The position numbers and the translations under genes were made by a program. Below, piece after piece: positions 16,984-22,707 of a stretch of 33,609 nucleotides of DNA. How positions within the stretch are numbered: the first letter of the stretch is position 1; each line of letters starts with the position of its first letter. The notes under the pieces were generated by a model. That model did not search any database. It saw only the letters and a list, made by a program, of their open reading frames with translations, and was not told the DNA's origin. Origin of the DNA: Dehalococcoidales bacterium (GTDB taxonomy: Bacteria > Chloroflexota > Dehalococcoidia > Dehalococcoidales > BS750m-G39); contig JAGMCH010000014.1 in assembly GCA_023129255.1 (NCBI GenBank), forward strand, positions 1 to 33,609. The letters are read 5' to 3'.

Positions 16984-18177
16984 CTATTTTTTCCTATTGA
17001 GCAATGCCTCCACACCGGGCAGTGTTTTGCCACCCAGGAATCGGAGTGAGGCACCGCCACCGGTAGAGACAAAGGTCATCTTGTCAGCCAGTTTCATCTC
17101 AGTTACTGCCTCAGCGGTAGAGCCTCCTCCAATAATAGTAGTAGCCTCAAGGCCGGCTAAAAGTCTAGCCATGGCTTGTGTGCCCTGAGCAAACTGAGCT
17201 ATCTCATATACGCCCATCGGTCCGTTCCAAAAGATTGTTTTGCACCGCTGTAATTCTTCGGAGAAGTTAGTGATAGTCTGAGGCCCGATATCCACAATTC
17301 TCCAATCTGGCGGTATTTCCCCTACCGATACTACCTCGGCTTTGGATTCAGCACTAACTTCAGCGGCAACAACCACGTCAACCGGCAGCATCAAGCGCAC
17401 TCCTTGCTGGGCTTCCTTCTTCATCAGCTTAGCTGCTAGCTCTATTTTATCATTTTCCACCAGGGACATGCCTACCTGATAGGATTTAGCCTTTAAGAAA
17501 GTGGCTGCCATGCTACCACCAATCAGGAGACAGTCCACCTTATCCATGGTATTCTCCAGCACACTGAGCTTGTCACTTACCTTGGCGCCACCGGCAAGCT
17601 CGGCGAAGGGATGACGGGGATTGGCTAGAATGCTACCCAGGACCTTGATTTCCTTCTCAACTAGTAAGCCAGCTACTGCTGGCAGATAATTGGCCACACC
17701 CACTACCGAAGCATGAGCCCGGTGACTGGCACCGAAGGCATCATTTACATAGATATCAGCTAACCGGGCTAGGGCTTGAGCGAAAGAGGCATCGTTGGCT
17801 TCCTCCTCGGGGTGAAAGCGAATATTCTCCAGGAGCAAAACATCACCCGGCTTCAATTTGGCTACCGCTTTCTCTACCTCGGCGCCAATACTGTCGGGAG
17901 CAACCTCCACCGAGTGGCCAAGAATCTGCGATAGGCGTTGGGCAACGATAGCTAAGCGCAATTTCTCAACTACCTTCCCCTTGGGTCGACCCAGATGCGA
18001 GCACAGGATAACCCTAGCCCCTCGGTCGATAAGATAATTGATAGTGGGCAGCGTGGCTTGGATACGGCTATCGTCAGTAATAGCCCCTGTCTCCCCGTCC
18101 AGGGGAACATTGAAGTCAGCCCTCACCAGGACCCTTTTACTGCCAACATCTATATCTCTGATTGTCAGCTTATTCAT
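16984..18177 (-). CDS. pgk: Phosphoglycerate kinase
   Basis: 397 residues, full length. N-terminal R-V-L-V-R-A-D-F-N-V-P-L, S-H-L-G-R-P-K-G, L-L-L-E-N-I-R-F-H-P-E-E, D-A-F-G-A-S-H-R-A-H-A-S, and C-terminal nucleotide loop T-I-I-G-G-G-S-T-A, S-T-G-G-G-A-S. Makes ATP from 1,3-bisphosphoglycerate, or runs backward in gluconeogenesis. Encoded between dxs and apgM on one strand. The 140-base gap to dxs holds the interleaved inverted repeats at 18210-18258, so pgk may be controlled separately from dxs. Confidence 0.97.
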   Translation of the reverse strand: MNKLTIRDIDVGSKRVLVRADFNVPLDGETGAITDDSRIQATLPTINYLIDRGARVILCSHLGRPKGKVVEKLRLAIVAQRLSQILGHSVEVAPDSIGAEVEKAVAKLKPGDVLLLENIRFHPEEEANDASFAQALARLADIYVNDAFGASHRAHASVVGVANYLPAVAGLLVEKEIKVLGSILANPRHPFAELAGGAKVSDKLSVLENTMDKVDCLLIGGSMAATFLKAKSYQVGMSLVENDKIELAAKLMKKEAQQGVRLMLPVDVVVAAEVSAESKAEVVSVGEIPPDWRIVDIGPQTITNFSEELQRCKTIFWNGPMGVYEIAQFAQGTQAMARLLAGLEATTIIGGGSTAEAVTEMKLADKMTFVSTGGGASLRFLGGKTLPGVEALLNRKK

Positions 18178-18209
18178 TTATTTATCAACCTCACCCCCCT
18201 AAGCATCTA

Positions 18210-18258
18210 TAGGCTCAGAAACAAAAATATCAGGCGTCTGAGCCTACACCTGATATTT
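18210..18258. promoter_or_regulatory. Two interleaved perfect 10-bp inverted repeats between dxs and pgk
   Basis: Arms in order: TAGGCTCAGA (18210-18219), AAATATCAGG (18225-18234), TCTGAGCCTA (18237-18246), CCTGATATTT (18249-18258). Arm 1 pairs with 3 and arm 2 with 4, so the two hairpins exclude each other. On the minus strand (direction of dxs to pgk) hairpin 2:4 ends in a T-rich tract (ATTTTTGTTT), like an intrinsic terminator, while hairpin 1:3 would break it. Confidence 0.7.
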
Positions 18259-18317
18259 CTAACTTGGCTTTCATTTATATACAAAGCTGCACATCCCTTG
18301 CCAGTAAATAATTGGAA

Positions 18318-20195
18318 TTAGCGGTTGGGAAATAACTCTAGGACCTGTTTTGTTATCCCTTCAGCATCAAGACCATACTTAGCCCGGAGGATAGCTTGGG
18401 TGCCCTGCTCCACAAACTCATCAGGGATACCAATGCTTTTTACCCGGGTATCACCGACGCCTGATTTTTGAAGAAGGTCAACTACACTATTGCCGAAGCC
18501 ACCGCTGAGAGCATTCTCCTCAACGGTAACCAGGCGCTTAATTTTTCTAGCCAAGTCTATTATAAGTTCGGAGTCCAGAGGCTTGGCAAAGCGGGCGTTA
18601 ACCACTGTAGCCTCAATTCCGTTTGAAGCTAGCTTCTGGGCTGCCTCAACAGCTGGAGCTACCATAGTTCCTATGGCTAATATGACGGCATCTTTGCCCT
18701 GCCTTACTATTTCCCCCTTACCTATAGAAATCTCATGCAGTTCCGCGTCTAATTCTACCCCCAAACCAGAGCCTCGGGGGTATCGTATCGCCATAGGGTG
18801 TTTTGACTTCACTGCGGTATAGAGCAGATGCTGAAGCTCATTCTCATCCTTGGGAGCAGCTATTATCAAATTGGGAATTAGAATTAGATAAGAGATGTCA
18901 AAAGTTCCCTGATGGGTCTTGCCATCGTCGCCAACAATGCCACTGCGGTCAATAGCGAAGATAACGGGCAAATCCTGAAGGCAGACATCATGTATTACTT
19001 GGTCGTAAGCGCGCTGCAGGAAGGTGGAATATATCGCCACGATAGGTATGAAACCCTGTGCTGCCAGCCCGGCGGCAAAGGTAACAGCGTGCTGCTCACA
19101 GATTCCCACATCAAACACTCGCTGCGGGAACTCAGCTTCAACTATGCTCAGGTAATTTCCCTCAGGCATAGCCGGGGTAATTGCCACCAGCCTGGAATCT
19201 TCCCGAGCCAGGCGGAGCACAGTCTGAGCAAATACCTCGCTGTAACTTGGTATTGCCTTATTGCTGGTGCTTTTAGCCGGCACACCATGAAAGTAAACGG
19301 CATCGCCCTCGGCTGGAAGATAGCCTTTGCCCTTGGTGGTGATGACATGAACAAAGGTCGGCTTCAAGCGGTAATCCCGTGCCTGGGTAAGAGCTGTTTC
19401 CAGTTCAGCAATGTTATGCCCGTTGATAGGTCCCATGTAGGTGAGGCCAAGCTCCTCCCAGAACACAGTAGGCATAATTAAGCCCTTGAATCCACTCCTA
19501 ACCCGTTGGCTTATTTGCCATATCTGTTTGCCCAAGGGGAGAGCCGACAGTACCCGTTTGCTCTCCTCCTCTGCCCAGCGGTAGCGGTAGTCGAAGCGCA
19601 CCCGGCTCAACAGTTTGGCCATGGCACCAACAGTGGGTGAAATTGACATCCCATTATCATTTAGAATCACGCAAATCCTGGAGCCCAAGTGTCCTACCTG
19701 GTTTAGTGCCTCAAGAGCCATCCCTCCAGTTATCGCCCCATCACCGATAATAGCAATCACGTGGTAGTCATCGTTGGAGAGGTCGCGAGCAATAGCCATA
19801 CCAAGGGCAGCAGAAACAGAGGTGCTGGCATGGCCGGCACCAAATGGGTCATGCTCACTCTCACTGCGATTGGTAAAACCGGATAGCCCTCCATATTGGC
19901 GAATAGAGGCAAAGCGCTGTCTTCTGCCGGTGAGCAGTTTGTGAACATAGCTTTGATGTCCCACGTCCCAGATAATCTTATCCCGTGGGCTATCAAACAC
20001 CCGATGTAAGGCTATAGTAAGCTCAACCGCACCCAGATTAGAAGCCAGATGACCTCCGTTAGCAGTTACTGTAGTCACCAGCTCCTGCCTAATCTCAGCA
20101 GCCAGCTGTTCGAGCTCCTGCTTTGTCAGCCCTTTCAAATCTGCGGGATTATCTATTTTGTCTAATAGTCTCAGCGTTGCCACCCTACTCACCAA
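18318..20195 (-). CDS. dxs: 1-deoxy-D-xylulose-5-phosphate synthase
   Basis: About 625 residues, normal for Dxs. Thiamine-diphosphate enzyme: D-V-G-H-Q-S-Y near the N-terminus, G-D-G-A-I-T-G-G-M-A-L-E-A-L-N metal/ThDP motif, central pyrimidine-binding domain with E-Q-H-A-V-T-F-A-A-G-L-A, and C-terminal transketolase domain. Joins pyruvate and glyceraldehyde 3-phosphate, the first step of the MEP isoprenoid route. Possible starts are TTG 20195, GTG 20192 and GTG 20183; none has a clear Shine-Dalgarno, and the predicted transcript start is only about 15-25 bases upstream. First gene of the long minus-strand string. Confidence 0.96.
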   Translation of the reverse strand: MVSRVATLRLLDKIDNPADLKGLTKQELEQLAAEIRQELVTTVTANGGHLASNLGAVELTIALHRVFDSPRDKIIWDVGHQSYVHKLLTGRRQRFASIRQYGGLSGFTNRSESEHDPFGAGHASTSVSAALGMAIARDLSNDDYHVIAIIGDGAITGGMALEALNQVGHLGSRICVILNDNGMSISPTVGAMAKLLSRVRFDYRYRWAEEESKRVLSALPLGKQIWQISQRVRSGFKGLIMPTVFWEELGLTYMGPINGHNIAELETALTQARDYRLKPTFVHVITTKGKGYLPAEGDAVYFHGVPAKSTSNKAIPSYSEVFAQTVLRLAREDSRLVAITPAMPEGNYLSIVEAEFPQRVFDVGICEQHAVTFAAGLAAQGFIPIVAIYSTFLQRAYDQVIHDVCLQDLPVIFAIDRSGIVGDDGKTHQGTFDISYLILIPNLIIAAPKDENELQHLLYTAVKSKHPMAIRYPRGSGLGVELDAELHEISIGKGEIVRQGKDAVILAIGTMVAPAVEAAQKLASNGIEATVVNARFAKPLDSELIIDLARKIKRLVTVEENALSGGFGNSVVDLLQKSGVGDTRVKSIGIPDEFVEQGTQAILRAKYGLDAEGITKQVLELFPNR

Positions 20196-20343: not shown

Positions 20344-20823
20344 TTGGATGTTTCTGATATCTTGGTAGTACTTGGTATTGCCGCTGCCCCCATAGCTGAA
20401 CTCCGAGTGGCAATACCTGTGGCTATAATCCAGTATCACTTCCCTTGGTATCAGGCTCTCCTGTTAGCTATCATTGGCAATATGTTGCCGGTACCCTTCA
20501 TTCTGTTATTCCTCAATACTGCTTCTCGACTACTAAGCAAAGTGGGTTTCTTCGACCGAATTTTGAACTGGCTCTTTGAACATACCAGGAAGCGAGGAAG
20601 ACTTGTCGAGAGGTATGAACGAATTGGTTTGGTGTTATTTGTCGCCATCCCTCTCCCGGTTACTGGTGCCTGGACAGGTTCATTAGCGGCTGTCCTTTTT
20701 GGCTTAAAATTCAAGCACGCCTTTTTATCTATCTTTATTGGAGTAGTTATTGCCGGCATCATTGTGACCTGTGCCACTGTTCTCGGCTGGACTATCTTTG
20801 GCATTTGGCAGGCATCAGGATAA
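20344..20823 (+). CDS. Small multidrug export family (COG2426-like) membrane protein
   Basis: 159 residues with about four to five hydrophobic helices. The pattern A-P-I-A-E-L-R-V-A-I-P-V-A-I near the N-terminus, G-N-M-L-P-V-P-F and F-V-A-I-P-L-P-V-T-G-A-W-T-G-S-L-A-A is typical of the Sm_multidrug_ex family (COG2426). The family name is historical; function is poorly known. TTG 20344 is accepted because GAGGAG at 20330-20335 is about 8 bases upstream and no ATG fits. Divergent from dxs with its own promoter; tRNA-Arg follows. Confidence 0.82.
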   Translation: MDVSDILVVLGIAAAPIAELRVAIPVAIIQYHFPWYQALLLAIIGNMLPVPFILLFLNTASRLLSKVGFFDRILNWLFEHTRKRGRLVERYERIGLVLFVAIPLPVTGAWTGSLAAVLFGLKFKHAFLSIFIGVVIAGIIVTCATVLGWTIFGIWQASG

Positions 20824-20917: not shown

Positions 20918-20991
20918 GTCCCTGTAGCTCAGTTGGACAGAGCGGCTGCCTTCTAAGCAGCGGGTCGTGGGTTCGAATCCCTCCAGGGACG
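20918..20991 (+). tRNA. tRNA-Arg(TCT)
   Basis: Acceptor GTCCCTG/CAGGGAC, D arm GCTC/GAGC, anticodon stem GCTGC/GCAGC with loop CTTCTAA (anticodon TCT), T arm GTGGG/CCCTC (one G-T pair) with TTCGAAT, discriminator G; 74 bases, no encoded CCA. A PlsY-like gene remnant abuts its 3' side. Confidence 0.95.
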
Positions 20992-21007
20992 CTACAAAGC
21001 TAAATTT

Positions 21008-21165: not shown

Positions 21166-22572
21166 CTATATTCCTTGCGTGTTATTATAGCCATGCGGGG
21201 GTAAGTCAAGCTCCCACCACGCTTCAGGGTCCTTCCCGTAGCCGGGGTCGGTGTCTAATTTTCTGAACATTCCATTGAACATCGGCGTGGTAGCTATAAT
21301 TTGCCTCACAAAATCGTGTATATGTATAAACGACTTATCCTGCTTGGAGAAAGGGCAGGCAGCCAAGCAAATGCCACAATCATGCCCACCTAGCTTCATC
21401 CACTGTGAAAAACAGTTGGGTGCTTTTTCATAGTATGTCTTGACACCGGGGTTGTTCCAGACCCCCTGTACCTCCCATGAGGGTTCTGTTTCCATGCTAA
21501 GGGCATTAGAGGGACAGAACTCGGCACATTTCTTGCAGGTACGGCAGAAGCGGAATATACCGGCATCTATCGGCTTGGTGGGAGCCAGCGGCAAATCGGT
21601 AATCACCTTGAATACCCGTACCAAAGGTCCCCATCTTGGAGAAATCATTCTGTTCAAACGGCTCAACTCGCCCAGCCCGGCCAGCACACCGAAGCCAGGG
21701 CTATTACCCGAGGTGCCCATGTTGCCGTCAGCCAGGCACTGGTATCCCAGCCTGTTTATGAACTGCTGGAGACGGAGCTGGACCGAGGTACCCTCAGAAT
21801 AGGCTATTGAGGAGGCGGCGGTGGCCAATGCCGCCGGTGCTGTCGCTAGGGAGGGTGAGGACATCCGGATGGTGTAGACAATAACCCATTTCGCCTGGTA
21901 GGGTATCACCTTCTTCTTTTTCGTCTCGTAAGCCTTGTCTACATCCTCAAACTCCCACTTCCTGCCATCCCAGCCATCAATTGCGTAGAACAGTTTGCGG
22001 GTGTTTTCGTCAAGCTCCACCACACCTACAGAGGCGGCACCATAAAGCTTGGCTGCCGCCCGGACCATCCGGGTATTTTCCTCAGGTGTGCCCTCGTAGC
22101 GAGGGTAGTCAAGGTCGTCGGGTATGCCCGACATGGCGAAGGGGACGGGGAGTCCGGGGCCGAGGAAGGCACGTTCTGTGGTCAGCAGTGATGTTAGCCA
22201 TCCGCCAACAACCAGTGCCTTTTCTCTCAGGCTGAACCCCGGCTCTTTTTCAAGTATGTTTTGTGTGCCCGTCTCCATAGCCTGCCCCCCCAGCTTCATG
22301 GCATTCTCGGGACCCACCGCCTGGGCAAAACCATTGACAAACATGATGTTGCTGGAGTCGAAGCGCTGCATCGTGCTCCAGTCAATCTCCACTGTGGGTT
22401 TATCCCCTTCCCTTACCCACCATGGCAGTCTCCGCTCAGCTGCAGGCGACGCCTTGACCTCATCAAGGTCATGGTATAGTGGGGAAGCTATGCCCGCAGC
22501 ACTACTACCGCTTCCCCCCAGCCCCAACATCTTCATAAAGCTCCTCTTGCTTAGTGTGGTGTGAGATTTCAT
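21166..22572 (-). CDS. rdhA: Reductive dehalogenase homologue, no rdhB nearby
   Basis: 468 residues from ATG 22572, with GGAAGGAG about 7-8 bases before it. N-terminus S-K-R-S-F-M-K (residues 8-14) is a Tat-type signal with Lys-Arg instead of Arg-Arg, followed by a weakly hydrophobic, Gly/Ser-rich stretch. The core has typical RdhA blocks: G-A-A-S-V-G-V-V-E-L, L-G-Y-Q-C-L-A, A-G-L-G-E-L-S-R, G-P-L-V-R-V-F, T-D-L-P-L. Two 4Fe-4S sites: C343-C346-C349-C353 (then Pro) and C387-C399-C402-C406 (then Pro). These enzymes use a corrinoid to remove halogen from organohalides, exported and membrane-bound. The partner anchor RdhB is not encoded on either side, and no regulator gene adjoins. Could be a non-respiratory RdhA homologue. 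Preceded by a long structured leader. Confidence 0.92.
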   Translation of the reverse strand: MKSHTTLSKRSFMKMLGLGGSGSSAAGIASPLYHDLDEVKASPAAERRLPWWVREGDKPTVEIDWSTMQRFDSSNIMFVNGFAQAVGPENAMKLGGQAMETGTQNILEKEPGFSLREKALVVGGWLTSLLTTERAFLGPGLPVPFAMSGIPDDLDYPRYEGTPEENTRMVRAAAKLYGAASVGVVELDENTRKLFYAIDGWDGRKWEFEDVDKAYETKKKKVIPYQAKWVIVYTIRMSSPSLATAPAALATAASSIAYSEGTSVQLRLQQFINRLGYQCLADGNMGTSGNSPGFGVLAGLGELSRLNRMISPRWGPLVRVFKVITDLPLAPTKPIDAGIFRFCRTCKKCAEFCPSNALSMETEPSWEVQGVWNNPGVKTYYEKAPNCFSQWMKLGGHDCGICLAACPFSKQDKSFIHIHDFVRQIIATTPMFNGMFRKLDTDPGYGKDPEAWWELDLPPHGYNNTQGI

Positions 22573-22617
22573 GGCTACTACTCCTTCCAATTTTACATTC
22601 CCCCCCCCACTCCCTAT

Positions 22618-22707
22618 GGGCTTCTTACTAAACATAGAAGCCCGTGCCTAATTGCATGAGCTTCTGTTGGGCAAAACCACCAATCTCGCTGTGAGGTTCA
22701 TGTCACA
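22618..22707 (-). promoter_or_regulatory. Structured leader and palindrome upstream of rdhA
   Basis: Read on the minus strand: inverted repeat TGTGA-N8-TCACA (22707-22690); segment AGAAGCTC (22665-22658); GGGCTTCT (22625-22618 on plus-strand coordinates, 5' arm at 22643-22636 reading AGAAGCCC on plus) forming a perfect 8-bp hairpin with a 10-base loop over 22618-22643. AGAAGCTC can replace the 3' arm with one G-U pair, so two hairpins compete. A run of nine G (22608-22600) lies between the hairpin and the Shine-Dalgarno sequence. Confidence 0.5.

Follow-up and report, generated by a model that had tools for sequence, protein, structure and literature searches.

The window, that is, the whole stretch of 33,609 nucleotides from a Dehalococcoidales bacterium that was analysed here, carries dxs and pgk on its minus strand. 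The end of dxs (18318) and the start of pgk (18177) are separated by 140 nt, and pgk is followed by genes for phosphoglycerate mutase and tpiA. The spacer contains a hairpin that runs into a U-tract, a second inverted repeat interleaved with the first, and one end of a dispersed repeat. The features are as follows, with arms named a, b, a' and b' in the order of their coordinates:

16984..18177, minus strand: pgk, phosphoglycerate kinase, the downstream gene (Pfam PF00162, E 6.5e-157)
18318..20195, minus strand: dxs, 1-deoxy-D-xylulose-5-phosphate synthase, the upstream gene (Pfam PF13292, E 5.9e-118)
18222..18261, minus strand: terminator-like hairpin (b/b' extended) with a stem of 16 pairs, including three G-U; 5' arm 18261-18246, 8-nt loop 18245-18238, 3' arm 18237-18222
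18254-18249 and 18234-18229, minus strand: conserved core of the hairpin, ATCAGG and CCTGAT
18219..18228 (18228-18219 in the direction of transcription), minus strand: U-tract after the conserved core, ATTTTTGTTT, read from the sequence
18210-18219, minus strand: arm a, TAGGCTCAGA, complementary to the loop of the b/b' hairpin, non-recurrent in relatives and transcribed past the U-tract
18225-18234: arm b, AAATATCAGG, pairing with b'
18237-18246, minus strand: arm a', made up of the 8-nt loop of the hairpin and the closing base on either side of it
18249-18258: arm b', pairing with b
18276..18304, minus strand: weak candidate promoter of pgk, predicted from sequence, CTGGCA (18304-18299), 17 nt, TATATA (18281-18276)
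18169..18198, minus strand: dispersed-repeat end, GGGGGTGAGGTTGATAAATAA, which provides the ribosome-binding region of pgk in the window

Besides the window, the GGGGGTGAGGTTGATAAATAA repeat has 11 or more other locations, spread over six of the 11 family genomes (L017; L013-L016, L019-L024; L012). One of these is in the window's own genome (G000), on contig 28, where it forms the ribosome-binding region of a gene that, judged by eye from its start, we take to be ndk-like. A block resembling CYTATAGATAC (18200-18212 in the window) is placed between the U-tract and the ribosome-binding site and recurs in many leaders. Elsewhere in the window, a reductive dehalogenase gene (21166-22635, minus strand; PF13486 and 4Fe-4S domains) is located near a tRNA-Arg (20918-20992). 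The hairpin is overlapped in the window by a 14-codon ATG...TGA frame. Inspected by eye, this frame is not preserved in relatives: the hairpin falls in a different frame, or the frame stops early or lacks a start codon.

The preliminary description had named the presence of the same 49 bases in many unrelated places, as a mobile repeat, as an observation that would speak against it. The window's own genome, which is 91% complete, has one match to the spacer with all 140 nt and one match to the 22-nt hairpin core with up to three mismatches, and this single copy of each rules out a mobile or dispersed repeat. The plasmids searched gave no match. At the gathering score, Rfam identified three tRNAs alone in the window, and its best match to the spacer was a weak one to IhtA, with 19.6 bits against a cut-off of 76.

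The interleaved arms

The four 10-nt arms follow each other in the order a, b, a', b' between 18210 and 18258, and both pairs are indeed perfect and interleaved. The window contains 18 perfect inverted seeds of 10 nt that lie within 60 nt, compared with 1.5 +- 1.6 in 60 dinucleotide shuffles; a/b/a'/b' is its sole interleaved set, and none of the 60 shuffles gave one. We agree with the preliminary description that a pseudoknot is unlikely. Its proposal of a terminator-like b/b' hairpin on the minus strand, which is the sense strand of both dxs and pgk, also holds: the hairpin has 16 pairs, a predicted energy of -19.3 kcal/mol and a stable stem with G-C pairs, and the U-rich tract follows directly after the stem, as in intrinsic terminators.

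It had further been proposed that a/a' dissolves this terminator, so that the two pairs form a mutually exclusive switch with a/a' as the antiterminator. Both pairs are perfect, and the match between the loop and the downstream sequence in the window, a run of 10 bp, is far beyond chance when taken alone (0/500 shuffles). However, the 3' arm of a/a' (18219-18210) starts at the final base of the U-tract and is therefore not yet made when the polymerase reaches the termination point, and in the predicted folds of the growing transcript b/b' is complete at 18222. Once both arms are present, b/b' is predicted to be the stronger fold, with -19.3 against -17.4 kcal/mol. Among 45 collected copies of the hairpin, pairing between the loop and the downstream sequence reaches p<=0.05 in four by longest run and in two by energy, the window being among both, which is approximately the level of chance. 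The order of transcription, the predicted energies and the chance-level recurrence together lead us to reject a/a' as an antiterminator, and we consider the switch barely credible. Nor did any other alternative helix recur among the 45 copies: upstream, none could be formed with the 5' arm and two with the 3' arm, and downstream, three with the 5' arm and five with the 3' arm, four of those five being from related genomes of family f27.

The second pair looks private to the lineage of the window. Consistently, the orientation of the loop is flipped between close relatives: the loops of G002, CTGAGCTT, and G010, AAGCTCAG, are reverse complements of each other without a mismatch, and the window's loop, AGGCTCAG, has the orientation of G010 with one base different. 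We infer that the a/a' match arose by inversion of the loop, as through template switching between the hairpin arms. Inversion of loops or spacers by template switching is on record (in the parts of PMC8794818 and PMC8604942 consulted), and the exact exchange of a loop for its reverse complement between close relatives, here G002 and G010, is shared with the cases in those parts. In contrast to them, the present case would concern an 8-nt loop in a bacterial intergenic hairpin, with a presumed role of the inversion in the a/a' match. An eye-catching second inverted repeat can thus be private to one lineage, and probably a product of loop inversion rather than a switch, and a mechanism should therefore be proposed for interleaved repeats only once relatives have been compared.

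Recurrence and conservation of the hairpin

In the family of the window, the hairpin is present in the dxs-pgk spacer of all eight genomes that have pgk behind dxs, and one genome of the same family (G001), in which pgk has no dxs in front, is without the motif. A covariance model built from 16 leaders (R1) was run, with a threshold of E<=0.1, on 156 genomes of the order. It matched 29 genomes, and in 28 of them the match is located upstream of pgk with the spacer alone between; b/b' thus recurs in relatives. The remaining match (G147) lies away from pgk. The distance from the hairpin to pgk is 103 nt in G151 and 175 nt in G002, where it is larger because 125 nt of repeat intervene; the insertion in G002 is a copy of the GGGGGTGAGGTTGATAAATAA repeat with 125 nt more and contains palindromic blocks.

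A second model (R2) was built from the 45 copies, G238 being one of its rows. At E<0.01 it matched 38 genomes of the order, 37 of which were in the training set while G102 was not, and every match is located just upstream of pgk. At E<=1, matches were obtained in 51 of the 156 genomes; the weaker ones lie upstream of pgk in G105, in G138 and for one of three in G136, and those in G018, G026, G043, G054, G081, G083, G085, G087, G126 and G147 are not beside known pgk places. Searches over 40 genomes used stricter filters, by which weak matches were lost.

Counted by leaders, the motif occurs within 130 nt of pgk in 41 of 105 by script, or 42 including G002, and is missing from 63, among them those of six single-contig genomes of family f9; some leaders are cut by contig ends (G121, G148). 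In G105 and G002, the motif is not the top-ranked hairpin in the script's scan of the leader. Other strong hairpins near the start of pgk are few among the leaders examined (G063, G071, G116, G152). Hairpins with changed sequence occupy the same place in G309 and G087, and a degenerate one is present in G325; these three, together with the match in G147, were left out of the 45-copy set. The pattern by which the 45 hairpins were collected required ATCAGG and [CT]CTG[AG]T, and the invariance of the half-sites in this set is therefore by construction. G238 was read opposite to the dxs strand in the counts with 45 rows; in the sense direction its core is identical to that of G335.

The U-tract and the pattern of substitutions both have a polarity. 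The 10 nt that follow the core contain on average 7.0 T, whereas the 10 nt that precede it contain 3.6 A (45 copies, including G238 on the wrong strand), and in 41 of the 45 the count of T behind the core is higher than that of A ahead of it. Equally, 41 of the 45 copies have at least six T in these 10 nt, and G055, G056 and G061 have four. The predicted stem energy has a median of -16.6 kcal/mol in the 45 collected copies. Changes on both sides of a pair were found in 24 cells against 10.5 +- 4.7 in shuffled alignments (0/500; 45 rows), and in 15 cells against 5.9 +- 2.1 when G238 was removed (0/1000; 44 rows), and the covariation score was 0.195 against 0.163 (0/500; 45 rows). Two other measures, both with 45 rows, did not exceed the shuffles: 4 pairs had changes on both sides (4.5 in shuffles), and 14 further pair types were present (14.7 in shuffles). 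The two inner pairs, to which the G-U test was confined, comprise 69 Watson-Crick, 13 G-U, 3 A-C and 3 other cells in 44 rows, the G-U cells coming from seven families and the A-C cells from one; related rows in these pair statistics are not independent. Seven extra copies outside the models add 9 Watson-Crick, 3 G-U, 1 A-C and 1 other cell. The pair changes and the bias towards G-U argue that the hairpin is kept on the mRNA strand, and the conserved element fits a terminator-like RNA hairpin on that strand with a U-tract.

The same half-sites could instead be a DNA operator, in which a dimeric protein would bind ATCAGG and CCTGAT. The half-sites are invariant in the set, though the set was collected with them, 33 of the 45 spacers are 13 or 14 nt long, and a count over the 11 family genomes gives 31 for the inverted pair and 2 for the reversed control pattern. 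However, the spacers have seven lengths from 7 to 17 nt, rather than the fixed spacing of a palindromic operator, and those of 7, 11, 12, 15 and 17 nt, in 12 of the 45 copies, break the helical phase. The T-run is one-sided, and the preference for G-U over A-C, 13 to 3, is expected of an RNA on the mRNA strand alone. Furthermore, five of six other sites that were read (five in the window's own genome and one in G010) overlap open frames, and the sixth is intergenic and has no T-run. We regard an operator as very unlikely.

Another non-terminator role, which we consider improbable if somewhat less so than an operator, is a hairpin at the 5' end that protects the pgk mRNA against degradation or signals where it is processed. 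In f34, a candidate TATAAT box ends 12 nt before the core (G137, G140), so that the mRNA would begin almost directly with the hairpin, and two copies in f12 have the hairpin but a poor U-tract. With the weak candidate promoter of the window, too, the mRNA would begin only a short way ahead of the hairpin. A protective or processing role needs no U-tract, yet at least six T in the 10 nt after the core are kept in nearly all copies, as counted above.

Association with dxs and with pgk

In five genomes (G058, G064, G065, G066 and G145), the hairpin is kept before pgk with no dxs in the flank. The next upstream frame of at least 100 aa is divergent in all five and resembles, by eye, the Sm_multidrug_ex gene of the window (20344-20823). 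Two of these genomes, G058 and G145, have no match to dxs at E<=1e-150, the other three being outside that sample. The hairpin is thus not solely a terminator of dxs, and it is also present in leaders that lack a frame of 100 aa on the same strand immediately ahead of it.

Among the other orders of the class, the arrangement dxs-hairpin-pgk is found in G354, G286 and G173, and the hairpin follows dxs without pgk as the next gene in G335, G238 and G265, where the next frame is, by eye, cooC-like or another one. Among 34 dxs 3' ends read from other orders, two of which are cut short, the pattern is present in four (G180, G206, G305 and G275) and absent from 30. In none of the four is pgk next; the following frame at some of them is, by eye, what we take to be polyprenyl-synthetase-like. 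The preliminary description had placed the element between isoprenoid and glycolytic genes. This is true of the dxs-pgk site, but elsewhere the hairpin stands before pgk without dxs or after dxs without pgk. Its ancestral place, to judge from this distribution, may be the spacer after dxs, with the hairpin staying with pgk in the window's order.

More widely in the class, R2 matched 34 of 393 genomes at E<=1, and at the 14 loci read, dxs adjoins in four and neither dxs nor pgk in ten. In the phylum, the model matched 15 of 301 genomes at E<=0.01, and none of the seven loci read beyond the class has dxs or pgk nearby. Three of these seven (L341, L344 and L346) have similar stems and T-runs between convergent frames, as ordinary terminators have, an arrangement that speaks for termination and makes a dedicated factor less likely.

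These results bear on a plain intercistronic terminator ending dxs, which would insulate pgk or fix the ratio of dxs to pgk without regulation, its stem being kept by descent and repair by template switching. Template switching can preserve the complementarity of arms without selection on the RNA (PMC8604942, in the part consulted). The hairpin after dxs with other genes next in the other orders and the stems between convergent frames both speak for such a terminator, as does the fact that no switching partner recurs, and internal terminators set stoichiometry in clostridial ABC operons (PMC9045158, as described in the part consulted). The stem-loop between two same-strand genes is shared with those operons; there, in the part consulted, the genes are those of ABC importers, whereas here the hairpin is kept even without the upstream gene in front. 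The five genomes with no dxs in front of the hairpin, the two of them without a dxs match and the 30 dxs 3' ends that lack the pattern all argue against it, and we consider a plain dxs terminator unlikely, though the most serious of the alternatives.

In G009, a start resembling that of phosphoglycerate mutase follows directly after dxs (L011), with pgk and the hairpin missing between them, and no pgk was found anywhere in this incomplete genome (67%).

A putative terminator in the pgk leader

On balance, and by a narrow preference, we favour the reading of b/b' as an intrinsic-terminator hairpin in the pgk leader that acts in the minus-strand RNA and would end a fraction of transcripts prematurely. 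RNA polymerase that reads on out of dxs, or that starts at a promoter in the spacer, would make the hairpin and the U-tract ahead of pgk, and a fraction of the transcripts would stop at the U-tract. Several families have candidate promoters upstream of the hairpin. They are clearest in f27, where TTGATA-17-TATAAT is present in five of ten genomes, with 43-45 nt from the end of the -10 to the core, and are also seen in f12 and f34; the candidate in the window is weak. The hairpin would thereby set the level of transcription of pgk, and probably also of the mutase gene and tpiA behind it. A terminator-like hairpin in the leader of a regulated gene is the feature shared with attenuators, and it recurs in the genomes matched by R1. 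Against a premature terminator of pgk stand the 63 of 105 pgk leaders without the motif, the three copies with four T in 10 nt, the position after dxs with other genes next in other orders, the failure of any switching partner to recur, the two covariation measures at the level of the shuffles, and the ability of template switching to maintain complementary arms in the absence of selection on RNA.

The sequence shows the hairpin and its U-tract, their recurrence ahead of pgk, the polarity towards the mRNA strand and the persistence of the hairpin where dxs is not in front; from this we infer that transcription ends there, in part and perhaps under control. As no antiterminator recurs, the element would be either a fixed partial terminator or one modulated by a trans-acting factor; a cis-acting modulator is disfavoured, since the search for alternative pairings gave none that recurs. 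A more specific version is that the element is an undescribed cis-regulatory RNA of pgk in the Dehalococcoidales and neighbouring orders, in which a trans-acting factor reads the AUCAGG/CCUGAU stem and ties pgk, or elsewhere the genes after dxs, to carbon status, and which was kept after the loss of dxs. We hold this version to be doubtful.

By the classes of PMC11109978, as given in the part consulted, the pgk-leader hairpin would be a "terminator stem candidate". It shares with that class, and with intrinsic (Rho-independent) terminators, the single strong hairpin, the compensatory changes and the U residues that follow. It differs from the class as described there in that it is tied to one gene in the order and has a recurring stem sequence, and a run of five U is not present in every copy. 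With the transcription attenuators with premature terminators in the consulted part of PMC2965389, it shares the terminator-like hairpin in a gene leader; unlike in them, we found neither an antiterminator nor a conserved leader peptide here, and no known aptamer either. A word search of that paper gave none of pgk, phosphoglycerate, Dehalococcoides or Chloroflexi, and no pgk-leader hairpin for this group was found in the literature searched, which comprised open-licence PMC papers.

A recurring terminator-like hairpin before pgk offers a concrete spot for term-seq. To our knowledge, little is known about the control of central carbon genes in these bacteria, which have small genomes and are hard to grow.

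Some leaders contain further pairing potential around the hairpin. The leader of G139 (L199) has another perfect hairpin, AACTATC-AGG-GATAGTT, which shares bases with the 5' arm of the conserved one and which is the fold predicted there. In leaders of family f27 (for example G089, G090 and G092), the ribosome-binding site, CTCAGGAG or ATCAGGAG, could pair with the 3' arm of the hairpin, and in some genomes of this family an RBS-like CAGGAG can pair with the 3' arm, which may constitute a second layer in the family.
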